Shown here: one piece after another, positions 5,854 to 64,000 of the stretch | How positions within the stretch are numbered: the first letter of the stretch is position 1 | Layout: the number at the start of each line of letters is the position of its first letter | Source of the DNA: Salinigranum salinum | GTDB taxonomy: Archaea; Halobacteriota; Halobacteria; Halobacteriales; Haloferacaceae | Direction of reading: 5' to 3' | Length of the DNA stretch: 64,000 bases | NCBI RefSeq assembly: GCF_009176545.1 | Contig: NZ_VTOJ01000003.1 | Coordinates: 1-64,000 of the forward strand | Translations under genes and position numbers: made by a program | The notes under the pieces: model-generated | Database searches by the model: none | Told to the model about the DNA's origin: nothing | What the model saw: the letters and a program-made list of their open reading frames with translations, nothing else

Positions 5854-5875
5854 CTCTCCCTATCGAGGGCGCAGC

Positions 5876-14350: not shown

Positions 14351-14364
14351 CCGTCTCATTAGAT

Positions 14365-14392
14365 GGTTTGTCTTCCCCGGAGCACCGAGGGG
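14365..14392 (+). promoter_or_regulatory. TTTGT / CCCC / GGGG intergenic element, copy 5
   Basis: GGTTTGTCTTCCCC is followed after ten bases by GGGG. It begins 15 bases after the DUF6166-like stop and ends 57 bases before the next start. Confidence 0.6.
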
Positions 14393-14449
14393 TGACGATT
14401 TTCGACCATCGTGGATCGGCCCCAGTCGCAGCCCCATTCTCACACCCAG

Positions 14450-17725: not shown

Positions 17726-17734
17726 CCCTCCCGT

Positions 17735-17772
17735 TTCCGTATATATCTGTATTATATCTTCGGAATACGGAA
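17735..17772. terminator. Inverted repeat after the MoxR-like gene
   Basis: Arms TTCCGTAT (17735-17742) and ATACGGAA (17765-17772) flank an AT-rich loop ten bases after the MoxR-like stop. It marks the left edge of the AT-rich stretch preceding the HerA cassette. It could be a terminator or an operator. Confidence 0.4.
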
Positions 17773-17920
17773 CCGACTCAATTGATGCACATGACGCTAC
17801 AATGATGATTTCAGAGAAAACAGTTAGTTGAGTATTGGAGTTATTGAAGTCTTCTCTATTTACTATATCTTATCAAAAGCTACAAGATAGTGGAGAAATA
17901 ACACTAGACAACACCCAACG

Positions 17921-47305: not shown

Positions 47306-48647
47306 CCTCGCCCGCTCGCGGACAACCGACGAGACGGTCACGCCGCTATTCATCGATCCCAACGAGGAACGGTACCGAGAAACCGCCCGAGAACTCATCA
47401 GACTGTTTCAGGAACACCTGGAGGAACCGAAGGGTGATCTCGAGGCCGCGATCGACGAGCTGACCGTCGCAGATACCGACTACAAGATCGTCCAGGGGCT
47501 CGCGAAGCTCCTCACAGACGAGTGTGAGTTCGAGATGGTCGCGCCAGCCGAGCCCCGCGAGATACGTCGGCGGCTCTTCGAGAAAGCGAACGAGCGCTAT
47601 CCCATCGTCCGCCAGCCCACGCTTGGTGAGGACACGCAGAAACTGGAGGTGTACAGTGCAGTCGCCGATGGGTTGGGTATCTCGCTCGAAGACTGCTATC
47701 GCGGGATGTACGCCGATCTGGAGGATAACAAGCGACTCGTTCGGATCGGGACGCGAACCGCGGAACAGTATGCCGGTGAGAACGGGGCGTCGACGTCCAC
47801 GACGGCGCTGACCGGCAGTAGTGCCGGAGACTACGAACACACCGACCTCACGGTCGACTGGTTGCTGACCCGCTACAACCTCGCGCTCGCCCAGGCGGTG
47901 CTGTACGACGCGACCGAGATGCGGATTCGCGTGTGGGACCACTTCGGGACGGTGTTCAGCTACGTGAAACTGTTCGGGCTGATGCACCGTTTCTATCCGA
48001 TCGACGCCGAGGGTGAACGCATCGCGAGTACGGATCTCGCGGCCGGCTACGAAGCCGTGCTGGACGGGCCAGCATCGCTGTTTTCCCAGTCCCGGAAGTA
48101 CGGCATCCGAATGGCGAACTTCCTCCCGGCATTGCCCCTCTGTGAGCGGTGGGAGATGAACGCTAAAATCCTCGTCGACGAGACGACAGGCGAGACGCGA
48201 CGGTTCACACTCGACCACACAGAGGGACTCGGATCACACTACAGTGCTGGTGAGCGCTTCGATAGTGACGTCGAACGGACGCTAGCTCAGAAGTGGGAGC
48301 GGGCAAATACCGAGTGGGAACTCGTGCGTGAGGACGACGTGTTTGACCTCGGTGCCGAGGTGATGATCCCCGACTTCGCAATCGAACATCCTGACGGGCG
48401 GCGAGCGATCTTCGAGATCGTCGGCTTCTGGACACCCGAATATCTGGATTCGAAGTTAGCGAAGATTCGAGAGGTGAAGGCCGAGAATTTCGTGCTGGCC
48501 GTCTCGGAGCGACTGGACTGTGCGGGCGAGGAGTTCGGCCAGGCGGCTGGTCGAGTCCTGTGGTTCAAAACCGGGATTCACGTCTACGACGTGGTTGAAC
48601 TGGCAGAGACGTTTGCTGCGGACACCTGTGAGGCAGGTTGTCTGTGA
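47292..48647 (+). CDS. Bax1-type nuclease (DUF790), XPB partner
   Basis: This 451-residue protein has the Bax1 N-terminus LTANLARSR, VTPLFIDPNE, and ERYRETARELI. It has a central DUF790 region and a C-terminal PD-(D/E)XK nuclease core (IPDFAIEHPDGR then IFEIVGFW; the Asp and Glu are visible). The start is a GTG at 47292 inside the XPB gene; a GTG at 47286 is also possible. The XPB-Bax1 complex cuts bubble and 3'-overhang DNA in nucleotide excision repair. Its conservation of catalytic residues suggests it is functional. Confidence 0.88.
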   Translation: MLTANLARSRTTDETVTPLFIDPNEERYRETARELIRLFQEHLEEPKGDLEAAIDELTVADTDYKIVQGLAKLLTDECEFEMVAPAEPREIRRRLFEKANERYPIVRQPTLGEDTQKLEVYSAVADGLGISLEDCYRGMYADLEDNKRLVRIGTRTAEQYAGENGASTSTTALTGSSAGDYEHTDLTVDWLLTRYNLALAQAVLYDATEMRIRVWDHFGTVFSYVKLFGLMHRFYPIDAEGERIASTDLAAGYEAVLDGPASLFSQSRKYGIRMANFLPALPLCERWEMNAKILVDETTGETRRFTLDHTEGLGSHYSAGERFDSDVERTLAQKWERANTEWELVREDDVFDLGAEVMIPDFAIEHPDGRRAIFEIVGFWTPEYLDSKLAKIREVKAENFVLAVSERLDCAGEEFGQAAGRVLWFKTGIHVYDVVELAETFAADTCEAGCL

Positions 48648-48822
48648 CCGTCTCGCGGTCTGATTGGTCCCAGCAGAAGCCCCCATTCAACTGGACTCAA
48701 ACAGACCATCTGCTATAATCAGAAACCGCCGTAGTTGTCTGCCAATACAAGTGAGGGGAGATAGGGATAGATTAGTCTATGACCGAGAAATCTCAGTCGA
48801 ATCTAAGGAAACCATCTCAACA

Positions 48823-49546
48823 CTAGTTTTTCTCTCGCCCAGCCCAGCTACCCGCAAATCCGAGAATACTGATAGCGAGACGGGCGTCACCGGCGGCCAC
48901 ATCGGCGATGCGAGAGAGCTGCTCGTCGAAGATATCGTCCTCGTTAGACCCCACTTCGCACGACCGCTCAGAATGTCGTACAGCCGCTCGTCGTGGTACT
49001 TGTCCATCCGGACCGTGTTCGCTGGAGCGCAAGCGACTCACGAGATGTTAGTCGACGCGGCCGAACAGCTCTTTTCTTTGTTCGCGAAGCATGATCGCGA
49101 ACTGCGGGAGGCTGTGGAGGTCGTAAATGACGCTTGGATTTTCGAGTTGATCGACCTCGTCGAGGATGACGACGGTTCGAGGCCCGTCATGTTGCTGGAG
49201 GCAGTCGATGGGGGGGTGTCGACCGTCGGTGGATGTGGATCGTCGCGCCGAGGTCATCGAGGATCTGGTAGAGTGTAGGAAACGGAGCGTAGTTAGGCCA
49301 GCAGTTGACGTATGTTGCCTCCACTTCGAGGGTTTCTTCACGCAATCGTTCCGTGACAAACTGCGAGATACAGGTCTTCCCGGTCCCGCTGGCTCCGGTG
49401 ACCATGGCAGTCTCGGTGGGTTCACCGTTTGTGATTGGTTCGAGGACGCTGGAGAAGTGGTTGATCTCGGCGTCGCGATGCTCGACTTCTTGAGGGACGA
49501 ATCGGGCGCCGAGGACGCGATTATCACGGATTATCTGTTGCCAGCA
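48823..49546 (-). pseudogene. Degraded orc1/cdc6 initiator gene
   Basis: Read on the minus strand from about 49540 leftward, pieces of an Orc1/Cdc6 protein appear in different frames. First come FVPQEVEHRDAEINH and the P-loop GASGTGKTCISQ, then, after a frame change, TVVILDEVDQLENPSVIYDL. After further shifts come MSRLRSSEH, MDKYHDERLYDIL and IADVAAGDARLAISIL. At least four frame disruptions are present and the C-terminal winged helix is missing. The gene cannot make a functional initiator. It once gave this replicon an origin-binding protein, so an origin may have lain nearby, and replication now depends on another initiator. Confidence 0.85.
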
Positions 49547-49806
49547 GATTTTTGCCAGCCTAGTTATAAAAGCGTAACCAAAAATTTTCCCCGAAAGTAA
49601 TTTCAAAATGGTGCCATTGTTTCGAAAAAAGAGTTATAAGGCCTATTTATCGACATCTGATAGGACCTTCAGCCCGTCTATTTCCGGAAATCGTAGGTTT
49701 TCTGGATTTGAACACGGGCGGAATACCCTGATTATCCAGATTTGAGTCACGTTAGGGGCTTGTAAACTGGAGGTTTAGATAGTGTCGTGGAATACACTTA
49801 TTCCAT
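49547..49806. other. AT-rich intergenic boundary of the defence island
   Basis: No gene. A TTTATAA-like element near 49563-49570 (minus strand) would have served the orc1/cdc6 gene. An ATGGTGCCAT near-palindrome lies at 49607-49616. A TTTAGATA near 49773-49780 could be the promoter of the EVE-McrB gene. It marks the left edge of the AT-richer defence island. Confidence 0.45.
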
Positions 49807-52356
49807 GTGGCAGAGAAGTGCGGAGAAATGCCCGAAGTAGAGATGATTGGAAGCAGTCTAGATCTATCCGAGATACGGGAACTACTAATTGGATCTCTTG
49901 GTGATTCGGTCAAGTGGCATAGCTCTGTTGAAAACAGACCGCTTGAGCTACATCTAAAAGATCCGCTTCCATCGAAAGTCAGGCTCTATCTATACAACCT
50001 CGTCCCTTCAGGACGCGAAGAGGAATTTAAAGTCAACGTACGACTCCCTGCCCACGAAGGTGGCGACGAAGACCATGCTGCTCCTGACCGCTCAGGGGGA
50101 TACCTAACGATGCTCGGCGGATATCACGAACACCACGAGGTCTTCGCATTTTGGGACGATGATCTCCACGAAGAATACGGCTCAGTATCTCCTCTCCAAG
50201 TTCAATCAGAGACCATAGGTAGGGCCATATCCGAGGGACTGACTACTCAACAAAGAGCGACTGCAGGCCTTGGCGGTGAAACAGTCATCGTTGCACAGCC
50301 AGATCGCGTCGGTGAAGCTATCGAAATGCGAGACCGGCTGATCAAGATCCGTACTCTTCTACACGAGTTCCTTCCAGATGGATGGCGGGATAACGGCTCC
50401 CGGGCACAGACGATTGAACGGGTTGTGGATGTCTTTCTCGAAGGAACTCCGCGAGATCGGTCTACTGAAAAACGGCGAGAGATGGCTCAACAGGTTGTTG
50501 CTGATGACTTGGGGAACACTCTGGACACGGTTCAAGACAAATTCCGAGGAGAACTTTGGGAAGACCGGGATCCGGGCAGTGAGGGATATCAGCGGAGGTA
50601 TCTTGACCCGATATTGGAGGAGATCGAGAGCGTCTGGAGAGACGAGGAAACCAAGATTGAAGAATTGCTGGAAGAGGACGAAAAGTCGGATCATCCTCTC
50701 ATTGCATACCTTGAAGAAAGCGAACCCACGGTCTCGGTGTACTCATTCTCCGCGCCACCGGATCGATGGTGGACCTCCGCCCGCTACAACATACTCCCCT
50801 TTATACAGGACAACCAGGAACACTGGGAGGAGATTTCTCCGGGGGATGTCGTACTATTCTACTCACTGACCGAACCAGCGAATACTGATCTTTCTGACCA
50901 GTCTGAAGGCCTAATCGGAGCTGCCATACTCGGAGAGAAGTACGTCAAGGAAGACGACTGGTGGTGGGAGGAACCGGAAGACGCCGAGAGCTTCGAGTAT
51001 GTGGCAAGGTTCGACCGGGTGTTCTATACTGGCCAAATCGAGAACATCAACCTCAACCTAGGAACGGAGACCTCAGACAAAGAGGATTCCGCACAGGAGG
51101 AAGAATTAGAAGCACTGACCACGGATTTACTCGAAGTCTCGAAGGCCCACAGTATATGCCACAACGTTTTCGATGATCGGATGCCGGATGAAGAACCACT
51201 GGCTGCCTTCACATACGACGACGGATCCACTGAAACGGTTCGTCCCAAGGCCTTAATCCGAGAGATGGCCTCCAGTCTCCGTGAAGCACCGCCTGTGAAC
51301 ATTTACTCCGAGTTCTCGGGGTCCATAGATGCCGAACTGCTGAAAGGCCTTCATTTCCCTGACGGCGATAAAGAGATTCTTGACCAAATCGAGGCTGCGT
51401 TGCACGCTGGAAAACACGTTATCCTCACAGGGCCACCAGGGACAGGGAAGACCGAAATCGCAAGACGTGTAGTCAATGCACTGGCTGAACGATATTGGTG
51501 GCTGTATTCCGGATCACAGATGACGACGGCTACCTCTGACTGGTCGACCTTCGACACGGTCGGAGGCTACATGCCTGAAGAAGACGAGGATACGGACGGA
51601 GGTCTATCCTTCTCTCCAGGGATTATCCTTAACCGGTACAAAGACCGGGAAACTGAGACTCAACGGAACGAGCCGCTTGTAATCGACGAGCTAAACCGAG
51701 CTGATATCGACAAAGCGTTCGGACAGCTTTTCACAGTCCTATCAGGTCAATCCGTCCAGCTCCCATACACAAAAGACAACAAGGAGGTTGAGATAGTCTC
51801 CTCCGACCTGCTGGAGGAACTACCGAGATCTCACCAGTACGCTGTACCGGAGTCTTGGGTCATCTTTGCCACAATGAATACCTACGACAAGACCTCTCTG
51901 TATGAGATGAGTTATGCCTTCATGCGGCGGTTTTCCTTCATTCCCATCGATGTCCCAGAGCTTCCGGAAGAGGATGATCCGGACGAAGAGGAACTCCTAC
52001 GAGATCTCATGTCGGAGTACGTATCCACTTGGGATGGGATAGATGCTGACTCTGAAGAACAGATCGCGGTTGGCCGGGTCTGGAGGAATACCAACAACTC
52101 GGTCGACGCCCGGGCGATAGGCCCGGCTATCGTACAGGATATCCTCGCCACGATAACACAGTATCCCAGCTCTGATACGGAATTAGAGTACCGTCTGACG
52201 AACGCAGTGATTAGCTACATTTTCCCGCAGCTGGAGGGAGTTCCTGAACGCCGGCAAATCGTCAACAGCATCAAGAACTCGCCAGAGGTCAACGAGGAGA
52301 GAATCATGGAGGCAGCCAGGGAGATACTCCAAGTGTCCTTCGAAGACGATGAATAG
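49807..52356 (+). CDS. EVE-McrB type IV restriction GTPase/ATPase
   Basis: This is an 849-residue protein. The N-terminus (about 1-230) is an uncharacterised region with RLYLYNL and FAFWDDDLHEE. An EVE-like domain (about 300-420) carries a Trp/Tyr-rich cage (YSFSAPPDRWW, WEEISPGDVVLFYS), the type that reads modified bases. The AAA+ domain (about 530-720) has GPPGTGKTE, the McrB signature IDELNRADIDKAFGQL and FATMNTYD. McrB motors drive McrC to cut modified DNA. The start is GTG 49807 or ATG 49828; the latter has GGAG just before it. Its ATG-overlap with the next gene gives an operon. It converges with the BREX-like operon. Confidence 0.85.
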   Translation: MAEKCGEMPEVEMIGSSLDLSEIRELLIGSLGDSVKWHSSVENRPLELHLKDPLPSKVRLYLYNLVPSGREEEFKVNVRLPAHEGGDEDHAAPDRSGGYLTMLGGYHEHHEVFAFWDDDLHEEYGSVSPLQVQSETIGRAISEGLTTQQRATAGLGGETVIVAQPDRVGEAIEMRDRLIKIRTLLHEFLPDGWRDNGSRAQTIERVVDVFLEGTPRDRSTEKRREMAQQVVADDLGNTLDTVQDKFRGELWEDRDPGSEGYQRRYLDPILEEIESVWRDEETKIEELLEEDEKSDHPLIAYLEESEPTVSVYSFSAPPDRWWTSARYNILPFIQDNQEHWEEISPGDVVLFYSLTEPANTDLSDQSEGLIGAAILGEKYVKEDDWWWEEPEDAESFEYVARFDRVFYTGQIENINLNLGTETSDKEDSAQEEELEALTTDLLEVSKAHSICHNVFDDRMPDEEPLAAFTYDDGSTETVRPKALIREMASSLREAPPVNIYSEFSGSIDAELLKGLHFPDGDKEILDQIEAALHAGKHVILTGPPGTGKTEIARRVVNALAERYWWLYSGSQMTTATSDWSTFDTVGGYMPEEDEDTDGGLSFSPGIILNRYKDRETETQRNEPLVIDELNRADIDKAFGQLFTVLSGQSVQLPYTKDNKEVEIVSSDLLEELPRSHQYAVPESWVIFATMNTYDKTSLYEMSYAFMRRFSFIPIDVPELPEEDDPDEEELLRDLMSEYVSTWDGIDADSEEQIAVGRVWRNTNNSVDARAIGPAIVQDILATITQYPSSDTELEYRLTNAVISYIFPQLEGVPERRQIVNSIKNSPEVNEERIMEAAREILQVSFEDDE

Positions 52357-53713
52357 AGAAACAATCATCGACCAGCTAAGCCAGGATATCGTCTCCTACG
52401 TAATGGCCGGGTCGTTCGAGGAGTATCAAATCGCCCGCGAGATCAAACCAGAGGACCTCAATGAACGGTTTGAGGACTACCGCTTGCTACTCAACCTCCA
52501 CTTCGTGTTGAAGAGTGATGTCGTGGAGTTCGTCAGGAAACTCCCGAAGCGACTGAGAAGTATCAGCACCGAGACGAAGACTGTTTCTCGCACTCGGAGG
52601 GGTGCTGTAGACGGCCACATCAACTGGGGGGCGACGATGAAGAAACGCTACTCCCAGAACCCCTCGGATAACTCGTTGTTCGTCTGTGATAACCGTTCTG
52701 AGGACTACGACACACCTGAGAATCTAGTGCTGAAACGGTTGATATCGATAATATACGAGACCATAGACCAAGCAGAGGAGTACATCAAACATGAGTATGC
52801 ATGGGCGCAGGACACGTGGCGAGGAGAGGAAGAGCTCATCGATGAACTGAAGCAAATAGTGGAGCGGAATGTTCACGTCCGAAGGATCCGCTCCCCCGAG
52901 AATTACGAACCCACGGAGCGGATGCTAATCGCTGCAGAGAGCTCCCGTCAGCCTATTTACCAAGAAGCAGCAGACCTCCTCCGTACCCATGCCGCTCTAG
53001 TTGCCGGGGAAAAGGGAGAGATCAAGGACCTGTTGAATAACACGGCGATCACACCCGACGATGACGAGACTCTGTTCGAGCTATACGTTCTGTTCCGGTT
53101 TGTCTCCGTCTTGGAGTCCGTTCGTAGCCAACAGGCGCGATTCAAGCCGGTTCGAGCGGGGAGGAAAGAAGTCGCAACGTTCACCGGCGACCCTGAACTG
53201 GTGCTGTACTACGACCAAGCAGCCACAGATCGGAATCTTTCCTTTGTCACCGAGGAAGAGATCTCGGAGCGCGCTCTATCCCGCAGTGAGAAGGTGCAGG
53301 AGGTCGCGTACGATATCTCATGCCAATATTTTGATAGAGATTTTCAGAATTATACCAATCGGCCTGACGTCATAGTCCTCGAAATCCGTAACTCCGACTC
53401 TCATACCTACGAATACCTCATCACCGAGGTCAAGAACAGTACGAACACTGGCACGATAAGAACCGGGATCAAAGAGGCCCTTGAATATCTCGCCTTCCTC
53501 AGGGTTGATGATGAGTTCGCCTTCGGTGGGGACGATGGTGAGGAGAATTACTTCGGGAGCGGGTGGAACGGGCTTCTCGTCGTCCAGGATCTCGACAAGA
53601 AAACCGCTTCACTTGAGGAGCAATCGGATTCTGAAATCAAGATCTTGCAGGCCTCAGAGCTAGAGGATGGACTTAAGAAAGTGCTTGATAGAGCCGACTT
53701 GAACGTGGAATAA
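52349..53713 (+). CDS. McrC/DUF2357-type nuclease subunit
   Basis: This 454-residue protein overlaps the McrB-like stop by eight bases. Residues ~320-400 form a PD-(D/E)XK nuclease core with RPDVIVLEI (Asp) and YLITEVKNS (Glu-x-Lys). The N-terminal region (about 30-130) with DYDTPENLVLK is the DUF2357-like part of McrC relatives. As McrC subunit it would cleave DNA bound and translocated by the EVE-McrB partner. Motifs look intact. It ends 11 bases before the 3' end of the Dam-like gene on the opposite strand. Confidence 0.82.
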   Translation: MNRETIIDQLSQDIVSYVMAGSFEEYQIAREIKPEDLNERFEDYRLLLNLHFVLKSDVVEFVRKLPKRLRSISTETKTVSRTRRGAVDGHINWGATMKKRYSQNPSDNSLFVCDNRSEDYDTPENLVLKRLISIIYETIDQAEEYIKHEYAWAQDTWRGEEELIDELKQIVERNVHVRRIRSPENYEPTERMLIAAESSRQPIYQEAADLLRTHAALVAGEKGEIKDLLNNTAITPDDDETLFELYVLFRFVSVLESVRSQQARFKPVRAGRKEVATFTGDPELVLYYDQAATDRNLSFVTEEEISERALSRSEKVQEVAYDISCQYFDRDFQNYTNRPDVIVLEIRNSDSHTYEYLITEVKNSTNTGTIRTGIKEALEYLAFLRVDDEFAFGGDDGEENYFGSGWNGLLVVQDLDKKTASLEEQSDSEIKILQASELEDGLKKVLDRADLNVE

Positions 53714-53724
53714 AACATCTGTAT

Positions 53725-54597
53725 TTACTCGTCGTCGTTGAGGCCGTCCAGCGTGGTCTGCTGGGTATCGTCGGTTTCGAACTGACCGGCATCATCAAGA
53801 TCGTAGTTGAGGATGAGACGTTCCGTGACCTCTGTTGAACGAGTCTCGTTGTCGTGCTGTTTATTCATGAACTGGGAACGTCCTTTCTCTACAATGATGT
53901 AGTCCTGTAGGCCCTCAGGGACTCGCTGGTAGGAAACTGCCCACTTGCCCTCGGTTTCGGTCAGGGTATCGACGAACCGTTCGTGGTCAAAGTCGCCCTC
54001 GTGGCGATACAGAGCGTCTCCTTCGTCGAGGTAGGGCGGGTCGCAGTAGAAGAATGTATCCCCGCTATCGTACCGATCAATTACTTCGGCGTAATCGAGA
54101 TTCTCGATTTGAACGTTCTTGAACCGGTCAGCGAACCCGTGGAGTTTCTCCGTGGCGTTCCTCAGTTTCCGGGCCTTGTTTCTTTGATGTGCTCCTGCGA
54201 ACCCGGAAGCTGTCCGGTACTTTGCAGCGTACTGGGAGTACCGGAGGTAGAAGAATCGCCCTGCTCGCTCAATCGGGTCGTCAGGCCTTTCGCCGGAGTA
54301 GAACGCCTCTTTCCATTCCTGATGCTGCTCTCTTGCATATGGAGTCAGGTCCAACCACTCGACGAGTTCTTCTTCCCGCTCCCGCAGTATTTCGAAGAAC
54401 TGGACCAGATCGCCGTCTAGATCGTTGTAGACCTCGGTGTGGCTCTCGGGCTTGTTGACCAGTACTGCTCCACTTCCGCCGAATACCTCAACGTAGCACT
54501 TGTGCGCAGGGAAATGTTCGATGATCCAGGGGGCCAGATATGATTTACCTCCTGGGAACGGAAATACAGACTCTGTCACGACCGGAGCGTAGACCAC
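53725..54597 (-). CDS. Dam-type (D12) N6-adenine DNA methyltransferase
   Basis: This 290-residue D12-class methylase has FPFPGGKSYL (SAM binding), VEVFGGSGAVL, NDLDGDLVQFFEIL and the catalytic DPPY near residue 187. The family typically methylates adenine in GATC-like sites; the site here is unknown. It is the last gene of the BREX-like operon, separated by a ~100-base gap from the 132-residue gene. It could protect self DNA or mark it for other systems. The C-terminal tail is acidic and halophile-like. Confidence 0.85.
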   Translation of the reverse strand: MVYAPVVTESVFPFPGGKSYLAPWIIEHFPAHKCYVEVFGGSGAVLVNKPESHTEVYNDLDGDLVQFFEILREREEELVEWLDLTPYAREQHQEWKEAFYSGERPDDPIERAGRFFYLRYSQYAAKYRTASGFAGAHQRNKARKLRNATEKLHGFADRFKNVQIENLDYAEVIDRYDSGDTFFYCDPPYLDEGDALYRHEGDFDHERFVDTLTETEGKWAVSYQRVPEGLQDYIIVEKGRSQFMNKQHDNETRSTEVTERLILNYDLDDAGQFETDDTQQTTLDGLNDDE

Positions 54598-54698
54598 GAT
54601 TGACTATAATACTTCCTTCATAGCAGTTGCCCCGGCCGATTACCTAAACAATCGCAGAGTGACGGCACAAAACCGCCACAGAACGTTGAGGTCCATTT

Positions 54699-55097
54699 CT
54701 ATGAAGTGACGTTCAGGTTGCTGGAATACCATCCCGGCCCCATCTGTTCAAGGCTTCCTCGGAAGATTGTGTTCAGTTGGATTCTCTCGTCGCCGTCAGG
54801 CAGTACAGGTTCATCCCAGTACTCTACGTTGTCCACCACGAACTGCACCCTGGGATTATTCGCCAACAGAAAGTTCACGCGCTCAGAGAGGATATCGTGG
54901 ATAAACTCGCTGATCTCTTCTGGATCCTCCGCCCCTCGAAGATAGCTATCGAGACCGACTACCGCGATATCGTAAGGGAGGTCGTCCATATCGTCTACAC
55001 GACGAAGAAACTCAACCACACTCATGCGTTCATCAAATTCATCTCCGTCGTCTAAGGCCTCTTCACCGACGACGTGATAGCCGATATCGAAGTTCAT
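54699..55097 (-). CDS. Unknown protein in the BREX-like operon
   Basis: This 132-residue acidic alpha/beta protein was not recognised: MNFDIGYHVVGEEAL, a VEFLRRVDDMDDLPYDIAV segment, VNFLLANNPRVQFVVDNVEYW, and a C-terminal WYSSNLNV. It sits between the DUF1156 methylase and the Dam-like gene on the same strand, 77 bases after the former. Known BREX operons contain small accessory proteins (BrxA, BrxB, BrxF), but I cannot match this to any of them. It may be a specificity or assembly factor. Confidence 0.55.
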   Translation of the reverse strand: MNFDIGYHVVGEEALDDGDEFDERMSVVEFLRRVDDMDDLPYDIAVVGLDSYLRGAEDPEEISEFIHDILSERVNFLLANNPRVQFVVDNVEYWDEPVLPDGDERIQLNTIFRGSLEQMGPGWYSSNLNVTS

Positions 55098-55174
55098 CAG
55101 ATTCTAACCGCTCGTAATCTGGCAGATGGTATAAAGTTAAGTGGAAATCAAGGCCTTTGCTGGCCGATGCTTCT

Positions 55175-57811
55175 TCAGCTGAAGTCTTCGATCTCCAACT
55201 GGGTATCCGATTGCTCCTTCACGTACTCAGCGATATCATCGTAGTCATCTTCTCCCTCAATTTCCGAGAGCCTGCGAAGTGCGTTGATCGCTCCCCCATC
55301 AGTCCATTTCCCAAACTTCTTCGCTAACTGATCGGTCTCAAAGAGATAGTACAGGTAGTGAGCCTTGTCGATAGACAGCGGTTCGTTCTTGTTTTCCAAG
55401 CGATCGGCCCGTTCAAGTGGACTCAGGATGACAAGGTCGTCTCCTTGCTGTTCCAGCAGATTTTCGTGAACCAGTTCGGCCACATCGACCCCTCTCTGCC
55501 GAAGATCCTTGTTCAGGGCGTTGAATGAGAGCTCTTCTCCCCTGCCCAAGATATGGGTCAGGTAGACTGCGCTGAGAGGATCCATTTCCTCGCTGAGGAT
55601 CTGGAAACGTTCTTCGAGCAGTTGCTCGTCGACGATTTCTTTGATGGCGTCTACGGCCTCGACGACATCCATCTGTTCTCCGTCACGGGTGACGTTGGGA
55701 TAATGTTTGGAGAAGATCTCTAGACACTTACCCATCGCTACCACGAAGATATCTCCGCCGGTCAAACGGCGACCTGCTTGCTCCAGTCGATCGATTTCGT
55801 CCTCTGCCCGGAAGTAGATATCGTCCTCAAGCGACTTCCACGAAACTTCCTCAGGGTCTTCTTGGCGTTTCCTGCAGACGATGATGGTGTCGTAGTCGAC
55901 GGTTGCTCTGCCGTGCCTTGTTCCCCCCCGAGTCTCGCTGTTCACAGGGTAGAGAGCGCTGATGTAGAAGTCAGCATCCAAGACGGACTGAAGGGTTGAA
56001 CCCCAGGCCTCGGTCTCTTTGTGGTGGAAGGTGAAGGCCATGATACCGTCGTCGGTCAGCTTCCGATGGGATTCGTTGAAGACGTTGGTCAGGGTCTCGA
56101 TGTAGTGCTCCTCGGTTCTCTTGTCCTCGACGTCTTTTGCAGGGTCGACGACAGCCTCGCTCTTCTTCGGAGTGCGTTCCCCTTGGAAGTGGTCGTAGGT
56201 GTCGCTGAGAACCTCGTGAAGCCATACGTAGTAGAAGTCGGAGAGCTCGGCGTACATCTCGTTGTCGTAGTACGGAGGATCCGTGATGATCGCATCTACT
56301 GATTCGTCCTCAATGGGTAGGTATTCAGAGGTACCACAGCGGAGGAAGGCATTCCCCCCTTCTCCAAGGTCAGAGGCATCGTCCACAAGGACACCCTCTA
56401 CCGGAGTCTGCATCTGCTTGTCCTGTGAATTGCCGTCCTCGTCGATGTACTTCTCGACCGGACTCTGACACCACTCCTTCGCAGCCTTCGTCTTATCGAA
56501 CATCCCTCTGAATGTGCCACGGCCGTAGTCGCTTCCCCAGATATTGCCTTCAACAGGTGTGTGACGGGCGATAATCGTATTGTAGTTGTATATGGGTTCA
56601 AGCTTGTTCGCCACGCGGTTGTACATGCAGAACATATTGTTCGACTCCAGCATCGCGGAGAATGTGGTGAGCAGGAACTCCTTCACGTTCTGATCGTCAA
56701 TGTCGTCTATTTCGTCAAGAAGCCGGCTCAGCAGGAGCAGCTGCCGGTCGTTGAACATCTGGTGGTACTTGTGGTAGCCGTGGTTCCAAGCACGGTCACT
56801 ACTGCCCTGGTACCTGTCCTGCTTTGGGATTGGAAGTTCATCCCATTCTTCCTCCAACTCTTGGCTTGCTTTTTCGTAGAGCTCAAGGTCGTGATCCACC
56901 GGGTCTTTGTATCCTTTATTGTCACAAGACCTGCAGTAGTACTCCACCGCGTACATCTGGGAGTCCGGTTTTCCGAACCGTTTCGTGGCGTCGATGATCT
57001 TGCTCCGGACACCGCAATCAGGACAGGTATAGTTCTGGCCTGAAGCAGTTCCTTCCTTCGGCATGAACTTATTACCGCAGTCCTCGTTCACGCATTTCGT
57101 CTCAGTACTGTGGTCGTCCGTTTGCTGGACGGTCCAGCAATCCGGGCAGAGAACGTTCTTATAGCTATCTTTGGAAGAACGTGAGTCAGCGAAGTAGTAG
57201 CCCTTGAACAAGGGCACATCGTGGCCGCAGTTCAGGCACTCAATCTCTTTCACCCAGAAATAGTACATCGCATCCGCCATGTCATCGCAGTCCGGACACG
57301 GCGTCTGGTAGTACTCAAGAATCTCCTCACCGACTGACTCATAGATCTCGTCATAGGCTTCCTGCAGGTCATCGATGTCGACAGGTTCTATCTCCTTTTT
57401 CACCGTGAACCAAGCAACAGGGTTCAGGTCACTGCCGATGACGTTGCAGCCCATGCGCAGGGCCTCGACAATGGTGGTTCCACCGCCCATGAACGGGTCG
57501 AGAACTGTTTTCCCGTCAAAGTCGACATCTTCCAGGTAGTAGTCCCACAACGCCTCTGGATTATCCCAGTCGACATCTGGCAACTCCTCGAAGCTCTCCT
57601 GACCGTTCTCCTTGATATGAATCTCATCCTCAGCAAGGGAATAAAGGAGCATAGTGCGAAAAACTGATCCCAGCCGCCTAGCCCAGTACTTGTGCATCGT
57701 ATACACTGGCCGGTAGTACCGCTTGGCGTGGCCTTCCTTCGATGCGATTTCGTTGACTTCCTCAATCGGGAACGAGATCTCGATAGGTCGACGACTATTG
57801 TCCTTACTCAT
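55175..57811 (-). CDS. DUF1156 adenine-specific DNA methylase (PglXI-like)
   Basis: This 878-residue protein starts at ATG 57811, five bases after the PglZ stop; the longer frame overlaps PglZ. It has the DUF1156 opening (KRYYRPVYTMHKYWARRLGS), the SAM motif VLDPFMGGGTT near residue 105, SDLNPVAWF, several CxxC zinc pairs (about 170-310) and the catalytic ITDPPYYDNEMY near residue 512. This is the COG1743 family, used as the methylase (PglXI) in BREX type 3. It would mark host DNA. It lies in the middle of the BREX-like operon. Confidence 0.88.
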   Translation of the reverse strand: MSKDNSRRPIEISFPIEEVNEIASKEGHAKRYYRPVYTMHKYWARRLGSVFRTMLLYSLAEDEIHIKENGQESFEELPDVDWDNPEALWDYYLEDVDFDGKTVLDPFMGGGTTIVEALRMGCNVIGSDLNPVAWFTVKKEIEPVDIDDLQEAYDEIYESVGEEILEYYQTPCPDCDDMADAMYYFWVKEIECLNCGHDVPLFKGYYFADSRSSKDSYKNVLCPDCWTVQQTDDHSTETKCVNEDCGNKFMPKEGTASGQNYTCPDCGVRSKIIDATKRFGKPDSQMYAVEYYCRSCDNKGYKDPVDHDLELYEKASQELEEEWDELPIPKQDRYQGSSDRAWNHGYHKYHQMFNDRQLLLLSRLLDEIDDIDDQNVKEFLLTTFSAMLESNNMFCMYNRVANKLEPIYNYNTIIARHTPVEGNIWGSDYGRGTFRGMFDKTKAAKEWCQSPVEKYIDEDGNSQDKQMQTPVEGVLVDDASDLGEGGNAFLRCGTSEYLPIEDESVDAIITDPPYYDNEMYAELSDFYYVWLHEVLSDTYDHFQGERTPKKSEAVVDPAKDVEDKRTEEHYIETLTNVFNESHRKLTDDGIMAFTFHHKETEAWGSTLQSVLDADFYISALYPVNSETRGGTRHGRATVDYDTIIVCRKRQEDPEEVSWKSLEDDIYFRAEDEIDRLEQAGRRLTGGDIFVVAMGKCLEIFSKHYPNVTRDGEQMDVVEAVDAIKEIVDEQLLEERFQILSEEMDPLSAVYLTHILGRGEELSFNALNKDLRQRGVDVAELVHENLLEQQGDDLVILSPLERADRLENKNEPLSIDKAHYLYYLFETDQLAKKFGKWTDGGAINALRRLSEIEGEDDYDDIAEYVKEQSDTQLEIEDFS

Positions 57812-57816
57812 GATTT

Positions 57817-58707
57817 TTAGAGACTGACATTGATTCGGGGTGTAACGCATTCGGAAACGCTGAGGCCTCCATGCTGGAAATTCGAATACTTCCCTCCAGC
57901 AGGCCAAGTGTACCTTCCGAGAGGCATGTAGTACCCATCTGCCTCAACGACAAGGCCCTCATCCACGAGGTCGTCGGCGTTGACTTCTCCGACGCTTTCG
58001 AACCTTCCGCTGAAAGTTGCTTGTAGGCGGTTTTTCTGTCGATCTGAAATCTTGAAGGTATGGCCGGAGTCCAACCGGGCGTATCCGTGGTCCGAGGTGA
58101 TCACCAGAGAGTCCGTATCTAGCTGGTCGATGATGTTGGTGAGTGCTGTCTCTGACTTCTCATACATCTCCTCGATTGAGGACAATTTGGTTCTCCCTTC
58201 CTGAATATTCTCAAGGAGGGCGTCAGGGTAACGGCACCAAATGATCCGTTCGTCACCGTCCAGGGATGGTTCTTGGCTCTGCACGCTCGCAGTTTTGTAC
58301 TCCTTCTTCAGGTCGGAGTACCCCACTCGGTTCCGGTAAGGTATCGTCTCCGAAGGAACGGTGGAATACGAGTAACCGACCGACAACTCACTGGCTTCGT
58401 CCTCCAAGATCTGTACGAAGAGGGAGGCCTCTCGGACGCTCATCGAATCCATCATAACCAATGCTCCATCTTCAGGAACGGTCATGGAGGCCTGGTTCAC
58501 ACACCTGTCCGTCAAGATCTCAGTATAGAACTCACCGTAAACATCGAGCAGCAGGCGTTCATACTTCACCAGTTGTGGCTCCCGACTATAGTGTGAGGCG
58601 ATATCATCTCCTGCAGGTGCCCAGATATTCCAGACTGCCTCCCAGACGGAGTCAACGGGATCCTCGGCGTCGACCAGGTTGGTGAGGACCTCAGTCTTGA
58701 ATTTCAC
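57817..58707 (-). CDS. Short PglZ-family protein
   Basis: This 296-residue alkaline-phosphatase-fold PglZ domain has VMMDSMSVREASLF near residue 85 (first metal site), TSDHGYARL near 205 and HGGLSVSECVTPR near 280, the HGG-x-S signature of PglZ. Typical BREX PglZ proteins exceed 700 residues, so this is a minimal core. It overlaps the BrxC-like stop by 17 bases and precedes the methylase by five, giving one operon. PglZ is essential in BREX but its exact reaction is not settled. Confidence 0.85.
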   Translation of the reverse strand: MKFKTEVLTNLVDAEDPVDSVWEAVWNIWAPAGDDIASHYSREPQLVKYERLLLDVYGEFYTEILTDRCVNQASMTVPEDGALVMMDSMSVREASLFVQILEDEASELSVGYSYSTVPSETIPYRNRVGYSDLKKEYKTASVQSQEPSLDGDERIIWCRYPDALLENIQEGRTKLSSIEEMYEKSETALTNIIDQLDTDSLVITSDHGYARLDSGHTFKISDRQKNRLQATFSGRFESVGEVNADDLVDEGLVVEADGYYMPLGRYTWPAGGKYSNFQHGGLSVSECVTPRINVSL

Positions 58708-61189
58708 TCTCGATCACCACCTGAGCGTCGATGTGGTTCGCACTTGGCAGATGCTCCAGGAACTCGATAAGCTCCTCCTTTGACAGCCCTTCTAAATCAT
58801 ACGAGAGGTCGATATGTGTGGCAGTGTCCGTGTCTCCGTTGACCCGAGACTCAGCTACACTTCGGAGAACACGGGGGCTGTTGCCCTCTAACTGCACCGT
58901 CTTCATCTCGGTCTGTTTATTGACGGCTTCTCCTTCCTCTCCCGTCCCTGACTCTGTACGTTCGACAGTCGTCGTGGTTCCATCTCCGGCACCGATGCTG
59001 CTTCCGGTCGCAACCCCTCTCGAACCCTTAGTCCCTGTGTCCGGCTCTGGCTCCGTTTCCGTATAAACCGACTCATCCAGGTTGTTCGGGTGGTGAATAG
59101 TCAGGTCGTCATCGAGATCTGGCAGCGGATCTCTCTTCTGAGTTGCGTAGAACTTCGCTCGGTCACTCTCCAAGATAATCTTCGCATCTCGGTATAGCTG
59201 GCCAAGAGCGGAGTAAAACGCACTATCCTCCAAGAGTACCGGCATCCTGCGGAACTGTCTGAAGTCGTTGAGCATCGAGGCCACGTTAACCCCGTTCTCC
59301 GCATCTCGAACCTCCTTGACTATCTTCTCGCCGATGTAGGTCTTATCACGTCCTACCTTGCTCTTCACGTCTTCTACGTTGGGGCTGACGGACTTCTTCC
59401 TCATCCGAAGACCACCTTCTGAGTCAGTCCACTTGACCCAGCTACCGTAGTTGTCCTCAAGCTCGTTCCGGAGCTCTCGGCGTTCGTCCCGGATGATTTT
59501 CTCCAGTTCACCTTGCTCGTCGTCGACTTTCCCTCTCAGGTTCTCCGCACCTAGCACACGAGCCGCCTTACTGATCAGGTCGTCATCTTGTCGGATCTTC
59601 TGATTCGGCGTGACGAAGAGAACCGTGTTCTGGTATGTGCGGCCCTCAAAGAAACCATTCAGCTTCTTCTCCAAAGCTCCGTTCGACAGGTAATCCAGCA
59701 TCACAACAACCGAGATATCCCTTGAGTCAGAGACATCGTCTTCAGGGTAGACTACCACGTCTCCGCTCCAAACATCGTCCCGTACCACTTCTGCCAGCTT
59801 CTCTTCAATAGCATCTCTTTCGCCATCTAACACCCGTTCCTGTTCCCGGGTTACGAGAGCGGTGAGCTTCGGATCCTCTGTGATGTAGTAATTGTCTTTC
59901 TGGCCATCCCGGTCTAGGTAGTGAGCGGTACCGTACAGGTTCTGGAGCGACATATCCAGCTTCGACACCGAGTTTTCCCCTGGTTTATACGTCCCCAGCA
60001 GGCACTGAGTGACCGAAGCCATCTGAGACCGCTCGTCCAGAGTGTATAGCAGGATGGTCTTCAGCAGCTCCTCCCCGTAATCGATTTTCTCGACAGCGTC
60101 AAGGTCGGAGACGTACCGGTTGAACAGTGTCTGGTTGATCCCTCGGAACGCAGCTGCTTTGATGTCGCTGGTGATGATGAGGTCTGTCTCTTGGTACAGC
60201 CTGCGGACCGTGTCAGCGAGGACGTTCATCGCCCCACGGACGTTCTGCCGTTCCTTCCCGCCTTCATACAGATTGTCGAGTAGATCTAGCAGCTCAGGAT
60301 GGAACGGGTAGGTCTCAACCATCCGGTTCTCATATCGTTTCTCCTCCTCGATCTTGACAGGATAATTGTAGTTCTCAACGTAGTTCTCGACGATATCTCG
60401 AACCTTGTTTTCGTCTAGGTCCTTTCGTCGGGTCTGGAAAAGACGGTGGAGAATAATCCGTTCTCTGTCGCCTGTGGCGTTTAGGTCGACAGCGTAGGGA
60501 TTCGTCCGGTTGAGGATTCGTTTGAAGTCGTCACTCTTGTCCAAAAGAGTGATAAAAACGAACAGATCTTCGTCGGGGTCGTTCGCTACCTCCAGCAGGT
60601 TCTGTATGAAGAACTCGTTGCGTTCTACCAGTTCCTCGTCTTCGGAGTCGCTGAAGGATTCCCACCAAGTTTCGATTTCGTCGAAGAAGATGGCCACCGG
60701 CTTATCGCCGCAGAGATCTTCGATGTGCTCGGTGGTGACGTATCGCTTGACGTCTTCCGAGATATCTTTGCGGCCCAGATCCTCGAAAATTGGTTCCCAG
60801 ATGTGATCCGCATCCGTCTCGCTGGTAGAAAGGATAGTCGCCTCTGCAGACTTCGGAACATCGAGAGGAATCTCCCACTCGTCAAGCCATTCCTGCCCGA
60901 TACCTGGACTGTTGAAGAGGTGGTAAAGGGTCAGTAGGCCGTGGGACTTACCTGCTCCGTAAGGCCCAGTGAGCGTTATTCCTCCCTGGCTGTCCCGTCC
61001 TCTGAGCTTGTTGTCGACGTGGTCGAACGCGGTTTCCAAGGCGTTCGACGGGTAAGTCATGGAGAGCAGGCGTGAAGGATCGTTTTCCAGTCGGTCCTCT
61101 GAGCCACCTACCTTGTGGGCTTGGAGAACTCCCTGAAATCTGCCTTCCTGAACTTCATCACGAGGAGTCAGGAGTTCGGAGATTGTCAT
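58691..61189 (-). CDS. BrxC/PglY-like P-loop ATPase (DUF499-like)
   Basis: This 832-residue ATPase has the Walker A GPYGAGKSHG near residue 74, STSETDADHIWEPIF, and Walker B VAIFFDEIETWW near residue 168. It has long helical regions and a Thr/Ser/Gly-rich linker at ~700-730. This is the layout of the DUF499/BrxC family that is the core motor of BREX. It is the first gene of the operon; GVATG-type acidic and Gly linkers are halophile features. A 7+7 inverted repeat lies 43-58 bases upstream. The C-terminal ~60 residues (YDLEGLSKEELIEFLEHLPS) form a small alpha/beta tail. Confidence 0.82.
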   Translation of the reverse strand: MTISELLTPRDEVQEGRFQGVLQAHKVGGSEDRLENDPSRLLSMTYPSNALETAFDHVDNKLRGRDSQGGITLTGPYGAGKSHGLLTLYHLFNSPGIGQEWLDEWEIPLDVPKSAEATILSTSETDADHIWEPIFEDLGRKDISEDVKRYVTTEHIEDLCGDKPVAIFFDEIETWWESFSDSEDEELVERNEFFIQNLLEVANDPDEDLFVFITLLDKSDDFKRILNRTNPYAVDLNATGDRERIILHRLFQTRRKDLDENKVRDIVENYVENYNYPVKIEEEKRYENRMVETYPFHPELLDLLDNLYEGGKERQNVRGAMNVLADTVRRLYQETDLIITSDIKAAAFRGINQTLFNRYVSDLDAVEKIDYGEELLKTILLYTLDERSQMASVTQCLLGTYKPGENSVSKLDMSLQNLYGTAHYLDRDGQKDNYYITEDPKLTALVTREQERVLDGERDAIEEKLAEVVRDDVWSGDVVVYPEDDVSDSRDISVVVMLDYLSNGALEKKLNGFFEGRTYQNTVLFVTPNQKIRQDDDLISKAARVLGAENLRGKVDDEQGELEKIIRDERRELRNELEDNYGSWVKWTDSEGGLRMRKKSVSPNVEDVKSKVGRDKTYIGEKIVKEVRDAENGVNVASMLNDFRQFRRMPVLLEDSAFYSALGQLYRDAKIILESDRAKFYATQKRDPLPDLDDDLTIHHPNNLDESVYTETEPEPDTGTKGSRGVATGSSIGAGDGTTTTVERTESGTGEEGEAVNKQTEMKTVQLEGNSPRVLRSVAESRVNGDTDTATHIDLSYDLEGLSKEELIEFLEHLPSANHIDAQVVIESEIQD

Positions 61190-61231
61190 GCTCTTATATT
61201 CTAACCGAGGCCTACTTGATGGTTGTCCAAA

Positions 61232-61247
61232 AGATACAGATGTATCT
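61232..61247 (-). promoter_or_regulatory. Inverted repeat upstream of the BrxC-like gene
   Basis: Arms AGATACA and TGTATCT with a two-base spacer are centred about 50 bases before the start at 61189, where promoter elements are expected. It is a candidate operator for the defence operon. Confidence 0.45.
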
Positions 61248-61606
61248 CGGAAACGAGCGGTAGTGATGGGAGACTGTCGAGTCAGGTCTTATTTTCACTC
61301 ATACCTCTCATTATAGGTATTCGACCTGCTGGATACAGGCCCGATCTGAAGAACTGCCCGTTACAGTACACGAGGCTCGATTCGAAGTCTAATAAATAAA
61401 CGTCTGCCCGACGAGTTCATCATTGACTCAATCAATCCCCCAACCATCGTCGTTCAGGTAATCCACTAACGTGCGCGATCCGATTCCCCCAGCATCGGAT
61501 CCAGGGTGATGGTACACTCATCAACCTCTCCAGAGAGGCGTCGAAACCGGTGATCCAGGTGGAATCTCATTCAAGTCCCGCCGAGCGACTCGGTCGTACG
61601 TCGGTA

Positions 61607-61650
61607 GTTACCCCACAAATTTGGCCAAATGACCTCACTCGTGGGGTAAC
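61607..61650. repeat. GTTACCCCAC / GTGGGGTAAC inverted repeat, copy 3
   Basis: Arms at 61607-61616 and 61641-61650 are identical to those at 27669 and 30345. The interior carries the perfect palindrome ATTTGGCCAAAT at 61618-61629. It lies 20 bases beyond the polymerase stop. Confidence 0.7.
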
Positions 61651-61669
61651 CTTCCGGAGCAACCGCCAG

Positions 61670-63958
61670 TCAGCTCCGAAAACCGCTCAGCGGGACGGAC
61701 TCTCGGTCGCTGAGATACCGTTCGATCTGTTCGCTGTCCCAGTCGAGGGGCGACAAAACACTTGCCGCTGCACGGATGGCACGCGTCTGGTAGAACGACG
61801 GGTCGTAGGACGTTGACTCATCAATCTCGTCGACCAAGCGGACCCGCTCCAGCGAATCTCTGTCGTCGTCCACAACGACGTACTGGATATCCTGTCCGCG
61901 AGCCAAAGACAGACCGCGGTCAACAGCCCGTTCGAGAGCTGCCACAGTCCGAGTCCGGTGAGAGTATGCCTCGACATCTTTCGACGACCGCGTCCGGATC
62001 ACGAGCTCCTTCGGAGACACGGCTCCACGCCGGAGCTCGCTGAGGCGAACCGCGAGTCTATCGCACACCGCTTCTGGGTCGCGGTGGCGATCGAGCGTTC
62101 GAATCAAATCCCGTTGAACCGCTGCGACCCATGCACACGTCGACCGCTGACGACACTCGATGCCTCGGTACTTGTACGCTGGTATCTCGGTTTCACCTCC
62201 GGTCGGCTCACGGCCACACCGACGACCAAAATACCGGGTGAGCGCCCCAGCACCGCCGTCCCGACGCGGACAGAACGCCACCCACTCGAACGCACCCTCG
62301 TACTCGAGTGAAATCCCGGCCTCAGCCGAGATCTCCTCGACCAGATCCCGAAGTGATGACCGATCCGCCTCGTGTTCGCGAGGTGTCACCCAGATCGAAT
62401 CCACGATGCCGTGGAGCACCTGCCAGCCGCCCGCCTCTAGTCTCTCTTTCGCCGTGAACAGGATATCCCGAGCGTAGGCGTTGATCGCTTCGTGGACCTC
62501 GATCCGGCCGAACTTCGCGTTCGAGAACCCCTGATACCCGAAACAACTCACGAGGATCCACTTCAACGCACTCGACTGGCCCTCAAGGGCCTCGCGTTTG
62601 GCCGTCGAAAGACCGGATTCCTCGGCATCACTGTCCTCGACCAGTCGTGCCTTGATCTCTGCTCGGTCATCGATGATCGGCTGGAGGACCTTCGGTAGAT
62701 ATCCGTCCTGGTCACAGACCGCGTATCCGAGCTCCGGCACGTCTGCCCGGTCGTGACACGTACAGCGGACTGTCTCCGGTGAAAGATTGAATTTACAGAT
62801 GATGTTCGGATACAGTGACGCGAAGTCAAGTTCGTGGACGTCCTCATGGAAACCGACGACCGGCGAAAGCGTCGTCCCGCCGCGGTCGGCGGCGTGGAGG
62901 TCCGCGGCGGTCTTGAATCGCTCCGGGCGCCACGCCCGCCACTGCACCAGCACCCCACGACGCCGTGCCTCGCGGATCTGGATCGCCGTGAGTACGTTCC
63001 CGATCGACGCCCACGCCAGCTCCTGGAGTGGCTTCCGGGACCGTTCGACCAAGTCGAGACATCCGGCGAGGTTCGTCTCCTTCAAGAAGAACGTGTTCTG
63101 ACGATCGATCACCACCCGTCCCGGGACGTTGTATCGCGCCGGAGAGTGCCGGACCTGTCCGTACGACTCGAACGTCGATGCCCCTGCCAGTTGCTGATAC
63201 ACGGGGATATCATCACGAGAGCCATCGGCAGGAACGCGCTGGAGACTGAGTTCGATATCGTACTCGCGGGCTGCCTCAGCAACGAGCGGAATGATGTCGC
63301 CGCGTTCGACCATGAGGACATCGGGATCCTCGTCGACGAGCCGATCACGCAGGGTCATGAGAGTGGCCCGAGCTGTCGAACCAGCCGGCTCTATCTCCGG
63401 GTCCATCGACGTGTCTGTTCTTGACGGGGCGACCACCTCAGACGCGATCTGCAGCCCACTCAGAGCCTCATCAGCGGCCGCCCGTCGCGAGAGACCGAGA
63501 GAGAGGACTGTCGGAGGACGACCGGGTTTCGGCGAAACATTTCGGTCGAGACAGTAGCGAAACTCCGGCGAGAAGTCCACGTCGAACGCCCGGTAGGGAA
63601 CCCGTCCGGGTGGCCCCCACCGCTCGATGAATCGACCCACCTCGCGGACCGCTCCTATCCGATCCACCTCGATTCGGAGTACTGGTTGCTCTGCGAATCG
63701 AAATCCGGGTCGCCACCGCTCGATGCACAGCTCCGAGACCGCAAGGTGTTTGTCTAGGTCTGCACGGAAATCCAGAAGCTCATCGACGCACTGCTCCACG
63801 TCGGGCACACTCGCCTCCATCCCGGTAGCAGTCACCGCGTACAGCGCTGGGCGGTAGCTAGCGTCGCGAGTGACCGTCCAGCCTGGGTTATCCACAGTTC
63901 CAGTCAACGACCACGCAAGCGGTGCGCCATCACCGAAAGAATCAATGGCGAACGGCAT
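61670..63958 (-). CDS. B-family DNA polymerase (PolB2-like)
   Basis: This 762-residue DNA polymerase has motif A as LDFASLYPNIICKF near residue 372, motif B as KWILVSCFGYQGFSNAKFG near 462 and motif C as HGIVDSIWV near 517. Motif C keeps the catalytic Asp but replaces the first Asp of the canonical DTD. The exonuclease region is poorly conserved (DPDVLMVERGD in the place of the second Exo motif), so proofreading may be weak or absent. This is the divergent haloarchaeal/plasmid PolB2 type. ATG 63958 is preferred; the frame is open to the window edge, so a longer protein cannot be excluded. The GTTACCCCAC element follows its 3' end. Confidence 0.85.
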   Translation of the reverse strand: MPFAIDSFGDGAPLAWSLTGTVDNPGWTVTRDASYRPALYAVTATGMEASVPDVEQCVDELLDFRADLDKHLAVSELCIERWRPGFRFAEQPVLRIEVDRIGAVREVGRFIERWGPPGRVPYRAFDVDFSPEFRYCLDRNVSPKPGRPPTVLSLGLSRRAAADEALSGLQIASEVVAPSRTDTSMDPEIEPAGSTARATLMTLRDRLVDEDPDVLMVERGDIIPLVAEAAREYDIELSLQRVPADGSRDDIPVYQQLAGASTFESYGQVRHSPARYNVPGRVVIDRQNTFFLKETNLAGCLDLVERSRKPLQELAWASIGNVLTAIQIREARRRGVLVQWRAWRPERFKTAADLHAADRGGTTLSPVVGFHEDVHELDFASLYPNIICKFNLSPETVRCTCHDRADVPELGYAVCDQDGYLPKVLQPIIDDRAEIKARLVEDSDAEESGLSTAKREALEGQSSALKWILVSCFGYQGFSNAKFGRIEVHEAINAYARDILFTAKERLEAGGWQVLHGIVDSIWVTPREHEADRSSLRDLVEEISAEAGISLEYEGAFEWVAFCPRRDGGAGALTRYFGRRCGREPTGGETEIPAYKYRGIECRQRSTCAWVAAVQRDLIRTLDRHRDPEAVCDRLAVRLSELRRGAVSPKELVIRTRSSKDVEAYSHRTRTVAALERAVDRGLSLARGQDIQYVVVDDDRDSLERVRLVDEIDESTSYDPSFYQTRAIRAAASVLSPLDWDSEQIERYLSDRESVPLSGFRS

Positions 63959-64000
63959 CCTCCCTCTCACCGACGCCTCGTCGTCGGGATATCGCGCTCG

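Follow-up and report, generated by a model that had tools for sequence, protein, structure and literature searches.

The DNA analysed here, referred to as the window, is a stretch of 64,000 nucleotides from the haloarchaeon Salinigranum salinum (assembly GCF_009176545.1, contig NZ_VTOJ01000003.1, positions 1 to 64,000), and its minus strand carries a compact locus for a DUF499-family ATPase, a stand-alone PglZ domain, a DUF1156 methyltransferase and a conserved protein of about 130 residues. This locus is probably a helicase-free variant in the DUF499 clade that holds the Type-3 BREX-Related (BR) systems (BREX, bacteriophage exclusion), restriction-modification-like in character and with PglZ as the cutter. 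The confidence so expressed is for the class and the general role, and it is lower for each mechanistic step. The composition of the locus, its conservation, the intact catalytic residues and the absence of SNF2 from the genome are matters of observation. The locus and its accessory genes are laid out as follows.

58691..61189, minus strand: core gene 1, DUF499-family AAA+ ATPase, 832 residues (Pfam DUF499 E 5e-12; PADLOC HmaC E 1e-20)
57817..58707, minus strand: core gene 2, stand-alone PglZ domain of the alkaline-phosphatase superfamily, 296 residues (profile, predicted fold)
55175..57811, minus strand: core gene 3, DUF1156 amino-methyltransferase, 878 residues (Pfam N6_N4_Mtase E 1e-18, DUF1156 E 5e-6)
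54699..55097, minus strand: core gene 4, conserved protein of about 130 residues, here 132 (recurs in all 30 loci of the order)
53725..54597, minus strand: accessory, D12 (Dam-like) adenine methylase (Pfam D12 E 6e-30; in five of 30 loci)
52349..53713, plus strand: accessory, McrC-like protein, 454 residues, convergent with the operon (gene context)
49807..52356, plus strand: accessory, McrB-like AAA_5 ATPase with an MTaX1 domain, 849 residues (Pfam AAA_5 E 7e-15, MTaX1 E 1e-8)

The five minus-strand genes, the 296-residue PglZ included, lie where an initial annotation made from the sequence had put them; the McrB-like/McrC-like pair at 49807-53713 was absent from it. That annotation read one operon from gene order and overlaps. 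A single transcription unit is plausible from the close spacing, but there is overlap at only one junction, by 17 bp between the DUF499 and PglZ genes, and the later junctions as far as the D12 gene are gaps of 5, 77 and 101 bp. The methylase start is taken as 57811, an ATG 5 bp past the PglZ stop, as in close relatives; judged by their starts, a 910-residue open reading frame from 57907 begins too early and was rejected.

The ATPase had been called BrxC-like. It is instead DUF499/HmaC-like, gives no PADLOC match to BrxC at E 0.1 and falls apart from BrxC in trees; its residues G75, G78, G80, K81, S82, D170 and E171 are invariant across 28 homologues. The methylase, with motifs DPFMGGG and DPPY and six Cys pairs, does have the DUF1156 domain ascribed to it, but the PglXI type also ascribed to it comes second in PADLOC, where HmaB (E 4e-47) outranks PglXI (E 7e-24).

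Recurrence of the four-gene unit

PglZ homologues were found in nine of 147 relatives and, when the window's order was scanned, in 27 of 392 genomes, making 30 different genomes combined. In all 30 the DUF499, PglZ, DUF1156 and ~130-residue protein genes follow one another in this order on one strand, and because of this recurrence the gene set is not a chance assembly. Two PglZ lineages, with 56-95% and 24-33% identity to the window PglZ, share it. In one locus (L052) PglZ and methylase are about 560 bp apart, and in one from the window's genus (L018, 3856-12512) the DUF499 gene is broken into a pair of overlapping frames and the core genes are set apart by additional sequence, with the three remaining core genes still open. 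A contig search made with a single sequence reached six loci, all in close relatives, and the named loci L010-L015 duplicate L047, L049, L052, L054, L055 and L056. When the flanks of 29 loci (L087 left out) were clustered, recurrent families reached at most six loci, at scattered positions apart from the D12, McrC and McrB genes of the five-locus group to which the window belongs.

A phylum scan gave PglZ matches in 12 of 392 genomes, seven of them outside the window's order. Two of these archaea, L083 and L082 (in the latter the small protein matches weakly, at 15 bits), have the four-gene set, so it is not confined to the window's order; of the other five, L081 is cut by a contig end, L080 is a 3.6-kb fragment and L084-L086 have BREX-like surroundings. 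Genes flanking the L082 core (44-6133 and 13382-14566) encode a topoisomerase VI-like protein, a protein with weak similarity to PD-(D/E)XK enzymes and a HerA-like ATPase that resembles MADS mad8. Among the 72,556 plasmids of PLSDB, the second-lineage PglZ of L058 matched seven, all haloarchaeal, and that of L083 matched 43, including loci of Aminobacter, Citrobacter and Ensifer. Nothing was found in IMG/VR with the PglZ alignment, or in phage records with two queries (the L135 DUF499 and the window DUF1156). Over 54702-61189, PHROGs families match the window methylase at 654 bits and its ATPase at 188 bits, with a weak match to the small protein (E 0.003); relatives thus seem to be present in some virus or provirus of that set.

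The PglZ protein

In Pfam the window PglZ scores E 0.045, below the cut-off. A profile of 29 PglZ homologues matches the solved BREX PglZ 9nv3_C (E 2e-7), and the predicted structure (mean predicted local distance difference test score, pLDDT, 84) matches PorX (E 1e-8) and BREX PglZ 9zn5 (E 1e-7), with TM-scores to those folds of 0.40-0.56 by query length. Six residues, D87, T121, D162, D206, H207 and H279, are identical in 25 of 25 aligned PglZ domains, of which 15 are from the window's order, three from other archaea, three from bacterial Type-3 BR loci and four from BREX-like loci. Judged by sequence, PglZ retains its metal ligands and nucleophile and looks active. By the alignment with 9nv3_C, T121 and H279 should match T538 and H741 of the Type I BREX PglZ, itself a nuclease, where mutation of these residues was reported to abolish or alter nuclease activity and T538A to cut defence by about 3 logs (PMC12205998).

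An active PglZ need not mean a cutter of invading DNA. If the locus were a module for epigenetic control or plasmid maintenance, its methylase and ATPase would modify DNA, and PglZ would cleave nucleotides or signals instead; PglZ/PorX domains are reported also to cleave cyclic and linear oligonucleotides (PMC12205998), and PglZ of this kind is on seven plasmid records. The closest sequence relatives, on the other hand, belong to BREX, Hma and BR systems, and PglZ nuclease activity contributes to Type I BREX defence according to the same report (PMC12205998), so that such a module is unlikely.

Relationship to Type-3 BR systems

A survey of DUF499-centred BR systems (Rakesh & Krishnan, NAR 2026; PMC12839542) describes Type-3 BR as consisting of DUF499, a methylase, a BrxHII-like helicase that lacks a nuclease and a stand-alone active PglZ, with an iSTAND protein in 82%, and counts it in 569 taxa, 134 of them archaeal. 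The idea that the window locus is an undescribed minimal BREX subtype of haloarchaea is therefore right in part. It is minimal, BREX-like and recurrent in haloarchaea, but systems of its kind have been described before, as Type-3 BR, and the missing helicase is what distinguishes it. The main text of the survey appears to make no mention of haloarchaea, McrBC or helicase-less forms (PMC12839542), and searches of the open-licence PMC literature for these gene combinations found no description of a helicase-free form.

The Aminobacter, Citrobacter and Ensifer plasmid loci, which were assigned to Type-3 BR by composition, encode DUF499, a PglZ of 329-339 residues, a DUF1156 methylase of ~1070 residues, a ~166-residue protein and SNF2, in the order of the window genes with the helicase added at the end. 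(The Citrobacter locus, L184 9886-12763, has a SIR2 gene and a gene for an ATP-binding protein between PglZ and methylase.) With Type-3 BR the window locus shares the DUF499 ATPase, a DUF1156 methylase with a putative zinc-finger insert (six Cys pairs), a stand-alone PglZ with an intact active site, the DUF499 clade, and the gene order of these three loci. It differs in that neither locus nor genome has a SNF2/BrxHII-type helicase, and in the small protein of the same slot, ~130 residues against ~166 in the bacteria. The missing helicase keeps the locus out of Type-3 BR, which it otherwise fits by its clade and most of its remaining parts.

In the DUF499 tree, PglZ-type loci, the McrBC-type loci described below and the three bacterial loci form one clade with support of 99 in the Shimodaira-Hasegawa-like approximate likelihood ratio test (SH-aLRT), separate from Hma-type rows (support 95, 92) and from BrxC. 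DUF499 trees had 62 rows without the bacterial loci and 46 with them, L018 with its broken gene being dropped, and those with bacterial rows, DUF499 and methylase alike, included 13 of the 33 PglZ-type rows. Methylase trees confirm the split from Hma (support 100).

The core had been likened to that of BREX type 3, with which the locus does share an AAA+ ATPase, PglZ and an amino-methylase. That membership is rejected: the ATPase is DUF499 and not BrxC, the PglZ is single-domain, and BrxA, BrxF and BrxHII were not found among the seven locus proteins scanned. Hma, with Type-1 and Type-2 BR, has an HmaB-like methylase and an HmaC-like ATPase in common with the window, but its loci fall in a separate DUF499 clade and have a large SNF2 protein in 16 of 17, PglZ in none of 17 and the ~130-residue protein in none of 17; an HmaA-type SNF2 helicase was not found in the window genome. 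The control set of 17 Hma-type loci comprises 16 of 44 genomes that had lower-scoring methylase matches only, plus one G186 region.

Absence of a helicase

The locus contains no helicase, BrxA, BrxB or BrxF, as the initial annotation had it. An SNF2-like match occurs in the fetched region of two of 33 PglZ-type loci, compared with nine of 11 McrBC-type and 16 of 17 Hma-type loci, and the two are a 446-residue C-terminal fragment (L058) and a weak match (L082). The L058 fragment, of a SNF2/RapA-type helicase, is at 17388-18728, 3.9 kb downstream of the core; because its best match is an Hma-type helicase, it does not show that a partner was lost. In the window genome (99.92% complete, 6.49% contamination), which has one DUF499 gene, there were no SNF2 domain matches at E 1e-8, and three more core-positive genomes (G037, G296, G241) are likewise without SNF2.

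Homologues of BrxHII or BrxA elsewhere on the replicon had been named as evidence that would count against a minimal system. BrxHII gave nothing full-length in the genome, just two partial matches of 25-27 bits. BrxA and BrxB are present in the genome, but on another contig, in a separate and ordinary BREX operon on C4 (1-19900; L182) together with BrxC, PglX and an 807-residue PglZ. That operon adjoins genes for an SMC-like ATPase and a metallophosphatase.

Points against a helicase-free system

Several points weigh against the reading of the locus as a helicase-free, PglZ-cutting relative of Type-3 BR. According to the survey, Type-3 BR retains its helicase, and these loci may be among its 134 archaea (PMC12839542). 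Some SNF2 protein is present in 26 of the 30 core-positive genomes, and a helicase of another family may act in trans, even in the window genome. The window PglZ is too short for the N-terminal part by which the Type I PglZ is reported to bind BrxB (PMC12205998). The trees come from quick searches, with SH-aLRT as their only support and long branches flagged; PglZ-type loci do not form a single group within the DUF499 clade (two to three changes) and the inner branching is unsettled, and the methylase tree places the bacterial rows with lone plasmid methylases (support 88). A defence function, moreover, is something that we infer for all members.

The small protein belongs among these points. 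It has no Pfam, NCBIfam or PADLOC match at E 0.1 and no match among PDB sequences; its model (pLDDT 85) has top fold matches that are mostly P-loop NTPases, all at E 0.28 or above. Profile comparison with haloarchaeal BrxB gave nothing. Against the ~166-residue bacterial protein of the same slot, HMMER found no match, hhalign aligned 33 columns at 45% identity (P 0.041), and in 36 pairwise comparisons the best score was reached by three of 1000 shuffles, with 33 of the 36 not under 50 in 1000. It is possible that the protein is an inactive P-loop adaptor, iSTAND/BrxB-like, a hypothesis and nothing firmer because the fold matches are weak, the BrxB comparison was null and homology to the 166-residue protein is not established.

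The helicase points bear also on the explanation that this is a Type-3 BR system whose BrxHII-like helicase is encoded elsewhere in the genome and acts in trans. The SNF2-type proteins of 26 genomes speak for it, as does a full-length BrxHII match of more than 1800 bits in seven of the 30. Yet the window genome has none, G037, G296 and G241 have no SNF2, and the SNF2 proteins elsewhere vary in length and kind, some being within McrBC-type or Hma-type loci; such a supply has perhaps one chance in ten.

Accessory genes and selection

The McrB-like ATPase matches NCBIfam McrB at E 6e-15, under that model's curated cut-off. Its 454-residue neighbour, for which no significant Pfam, NCBIfam or PADLOC match was found, is named McrC-like because its gene overlaps the McrB-like gene by 8 bp and its homologues adjoin that gene elsewhere. 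The D12 gene and the McrC/McrB pair occur in the same five of the 30 loci, the window's sub-group. Repeated conservation of five genes, D12 included, had been named as what would support a new subtype; the four core genes show it and D12 does not, and with D12 in so few loci the conserved unit is one of four genes. Nor is D12 a standing partner of this McrBC pair: a McrC search gave matches in 99 of 323 genomes, and of the best 30 loci, which were examined, 25 lie outside the window's group, none of them with a D12 match within ~1.5 kb. In L066 a more distant McrBC pair starts ~1.3 kb upstream of the core.

For the five-locus group the ratio of nonsynonymous to synonymous substitution rates (dN/dS) was computable for 21 of 23 pairs, two being saturated, and came to 0.02-0.07, and no internal stops were found; each pair was with the window gene, and the four core genes, D12 and McrC were included, with McrB and the McrC of L050 left out. 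In Halorubrum lacusprofundi (L050 14609-17377; L218, plasmid pHLAC01) an ISH3-like transposase divides the McrC-like gene into two parts, and no such break affects D12 or the four core genes, whose frames are open; pHLAC01 of strain ACAM34_DSMZ carries DUF499, PglZ, DUF1156, the small protein and D12.

A five-gene BREX subtype with D12 as an integral part could point to D12 being on the same strand, 101 bp past the small protein and under purifying selection; it is very improbable with D12 in only five of 30 loci and always accompanied by the McrBC pair. A decaying remnant of a larger BREX/BR locus, its helicase and function lost, can practically be dismissed, the broken and interrupted L018 (one locus in 30) and the helicase fragment downstream in L058 being outweighed by the low dN/dS and open frames of the five-locus group and by the retention of the same four genes in two lineages whose PglZ proteins are 24-33% identical to each other.

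McrBC-type relatives and other methylase loci

A second group of haloarchaeal loci (for example in halophilic archaeon DL31 and Halorientalis litorea) shares with the window a DUF499 protein (~1080 residues), DUF1156 and a homologue of the ~130-residue protein (29-42 bits), in varying gene order. It differs in lacking PglZ and having McrC and McrB: in 11 loci the small protein and McrC are present in 11, McrB in ten (the eleventh region being cut), SNF2 in nine and PglZ in none. McrC, with matches to PF10117, and McrB are mostly convergent, and the SNF2 protein (~580-645 residues) is often accompanied by a ~400-residue protein. These loci were found by methylase search, with at most two candidates scored per genome, and the count is without L133 (no DUF499 or small-protein match), L134 (the left part of the L144 locus), L135 (the same as L120) and L140-L143 (methylase without other core parts). 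PglZ-less loci (L119, L120/L135, L129-L132, L136-L139, L134/L144) sometimes have DUF1156 in two or three copies, and they are apparently a separate system.

The homologues in McrBC-type loci make the small protein common to two compositions with different likely cutters. A tentative generalization, to which we would give somewhat less than even credence, is that DUF499, DUF1156 and the ~130-residue adaptor form a portable marking-and-scanning core of self-sufficient helicase-free restriction, with PglZ and McrBC (the latter usually with SNF2) as alternative cutters, both of them in the window's sub-group, and with the small protein as the constant coupling part.

Shorter DUF1156-type methylases of ~700 residues are on bacterial plasmids (L121, L122, L123, L125, L127), immediately preceded in L121, L122, L123 and L125 by a same-strand gene for ~250-275 residues; of these four genes two were scanned and had no Pfam match. 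The two genes are possibly a small restriction-modification pair.

Proposed working

For a helicase-free, PglZ-cutting system the following working is proposed. The DUF1156 methylase would mark target sites in host DNA, and the DUF499 ATPase, if it behaves as BrxC does, would load on DNA and assemble the complex; in Type I BREX, BrxC is described as assembling with BrxB and PglZ on DNA (PMC13326643). PglZ would cut unmodified DNA, by analogy with the Type I BREX PglZ, and the ~130-residue protein may couple ATPase, methylase and cutter. A SNF2/BrxHII helicase would take no part, as there is none in the window locus or genome. The D12 methylase and the McrBC pair, at the 3′ end in the window's sub-group, would probably be a second layer.

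Neighbouring genes

Beside the defence block there is a gene with a PHROGs DNA helicase match followed by a 453-residue gene (45893-48647), which we take to be an XPB/Bax1-like pair, and on its other side a gene with a PHROGs DNA polymerase match (61670-63970). An Rfam scan of 46000-64000 found nothing.

Implications

There is as yet no settled account of the way in which BREX-like systems stop viral DNA. Halorubrum lacusprofundi is an established laboratory virus-host system, of which one laboratory strain, ACAM34_UNSW, is reported to have lost the entire operon-bearing plasmid pHLAC01 (PMC10544981). With four genes, no SNF2 and a single-domain PglZ, loci of this kind would be a small set in which to distinguish what the ATPase, the methylase and the PglZ nuclease each do, and their relatives with McrBC instead of PglZ would be a natural test of the role of the cutter.

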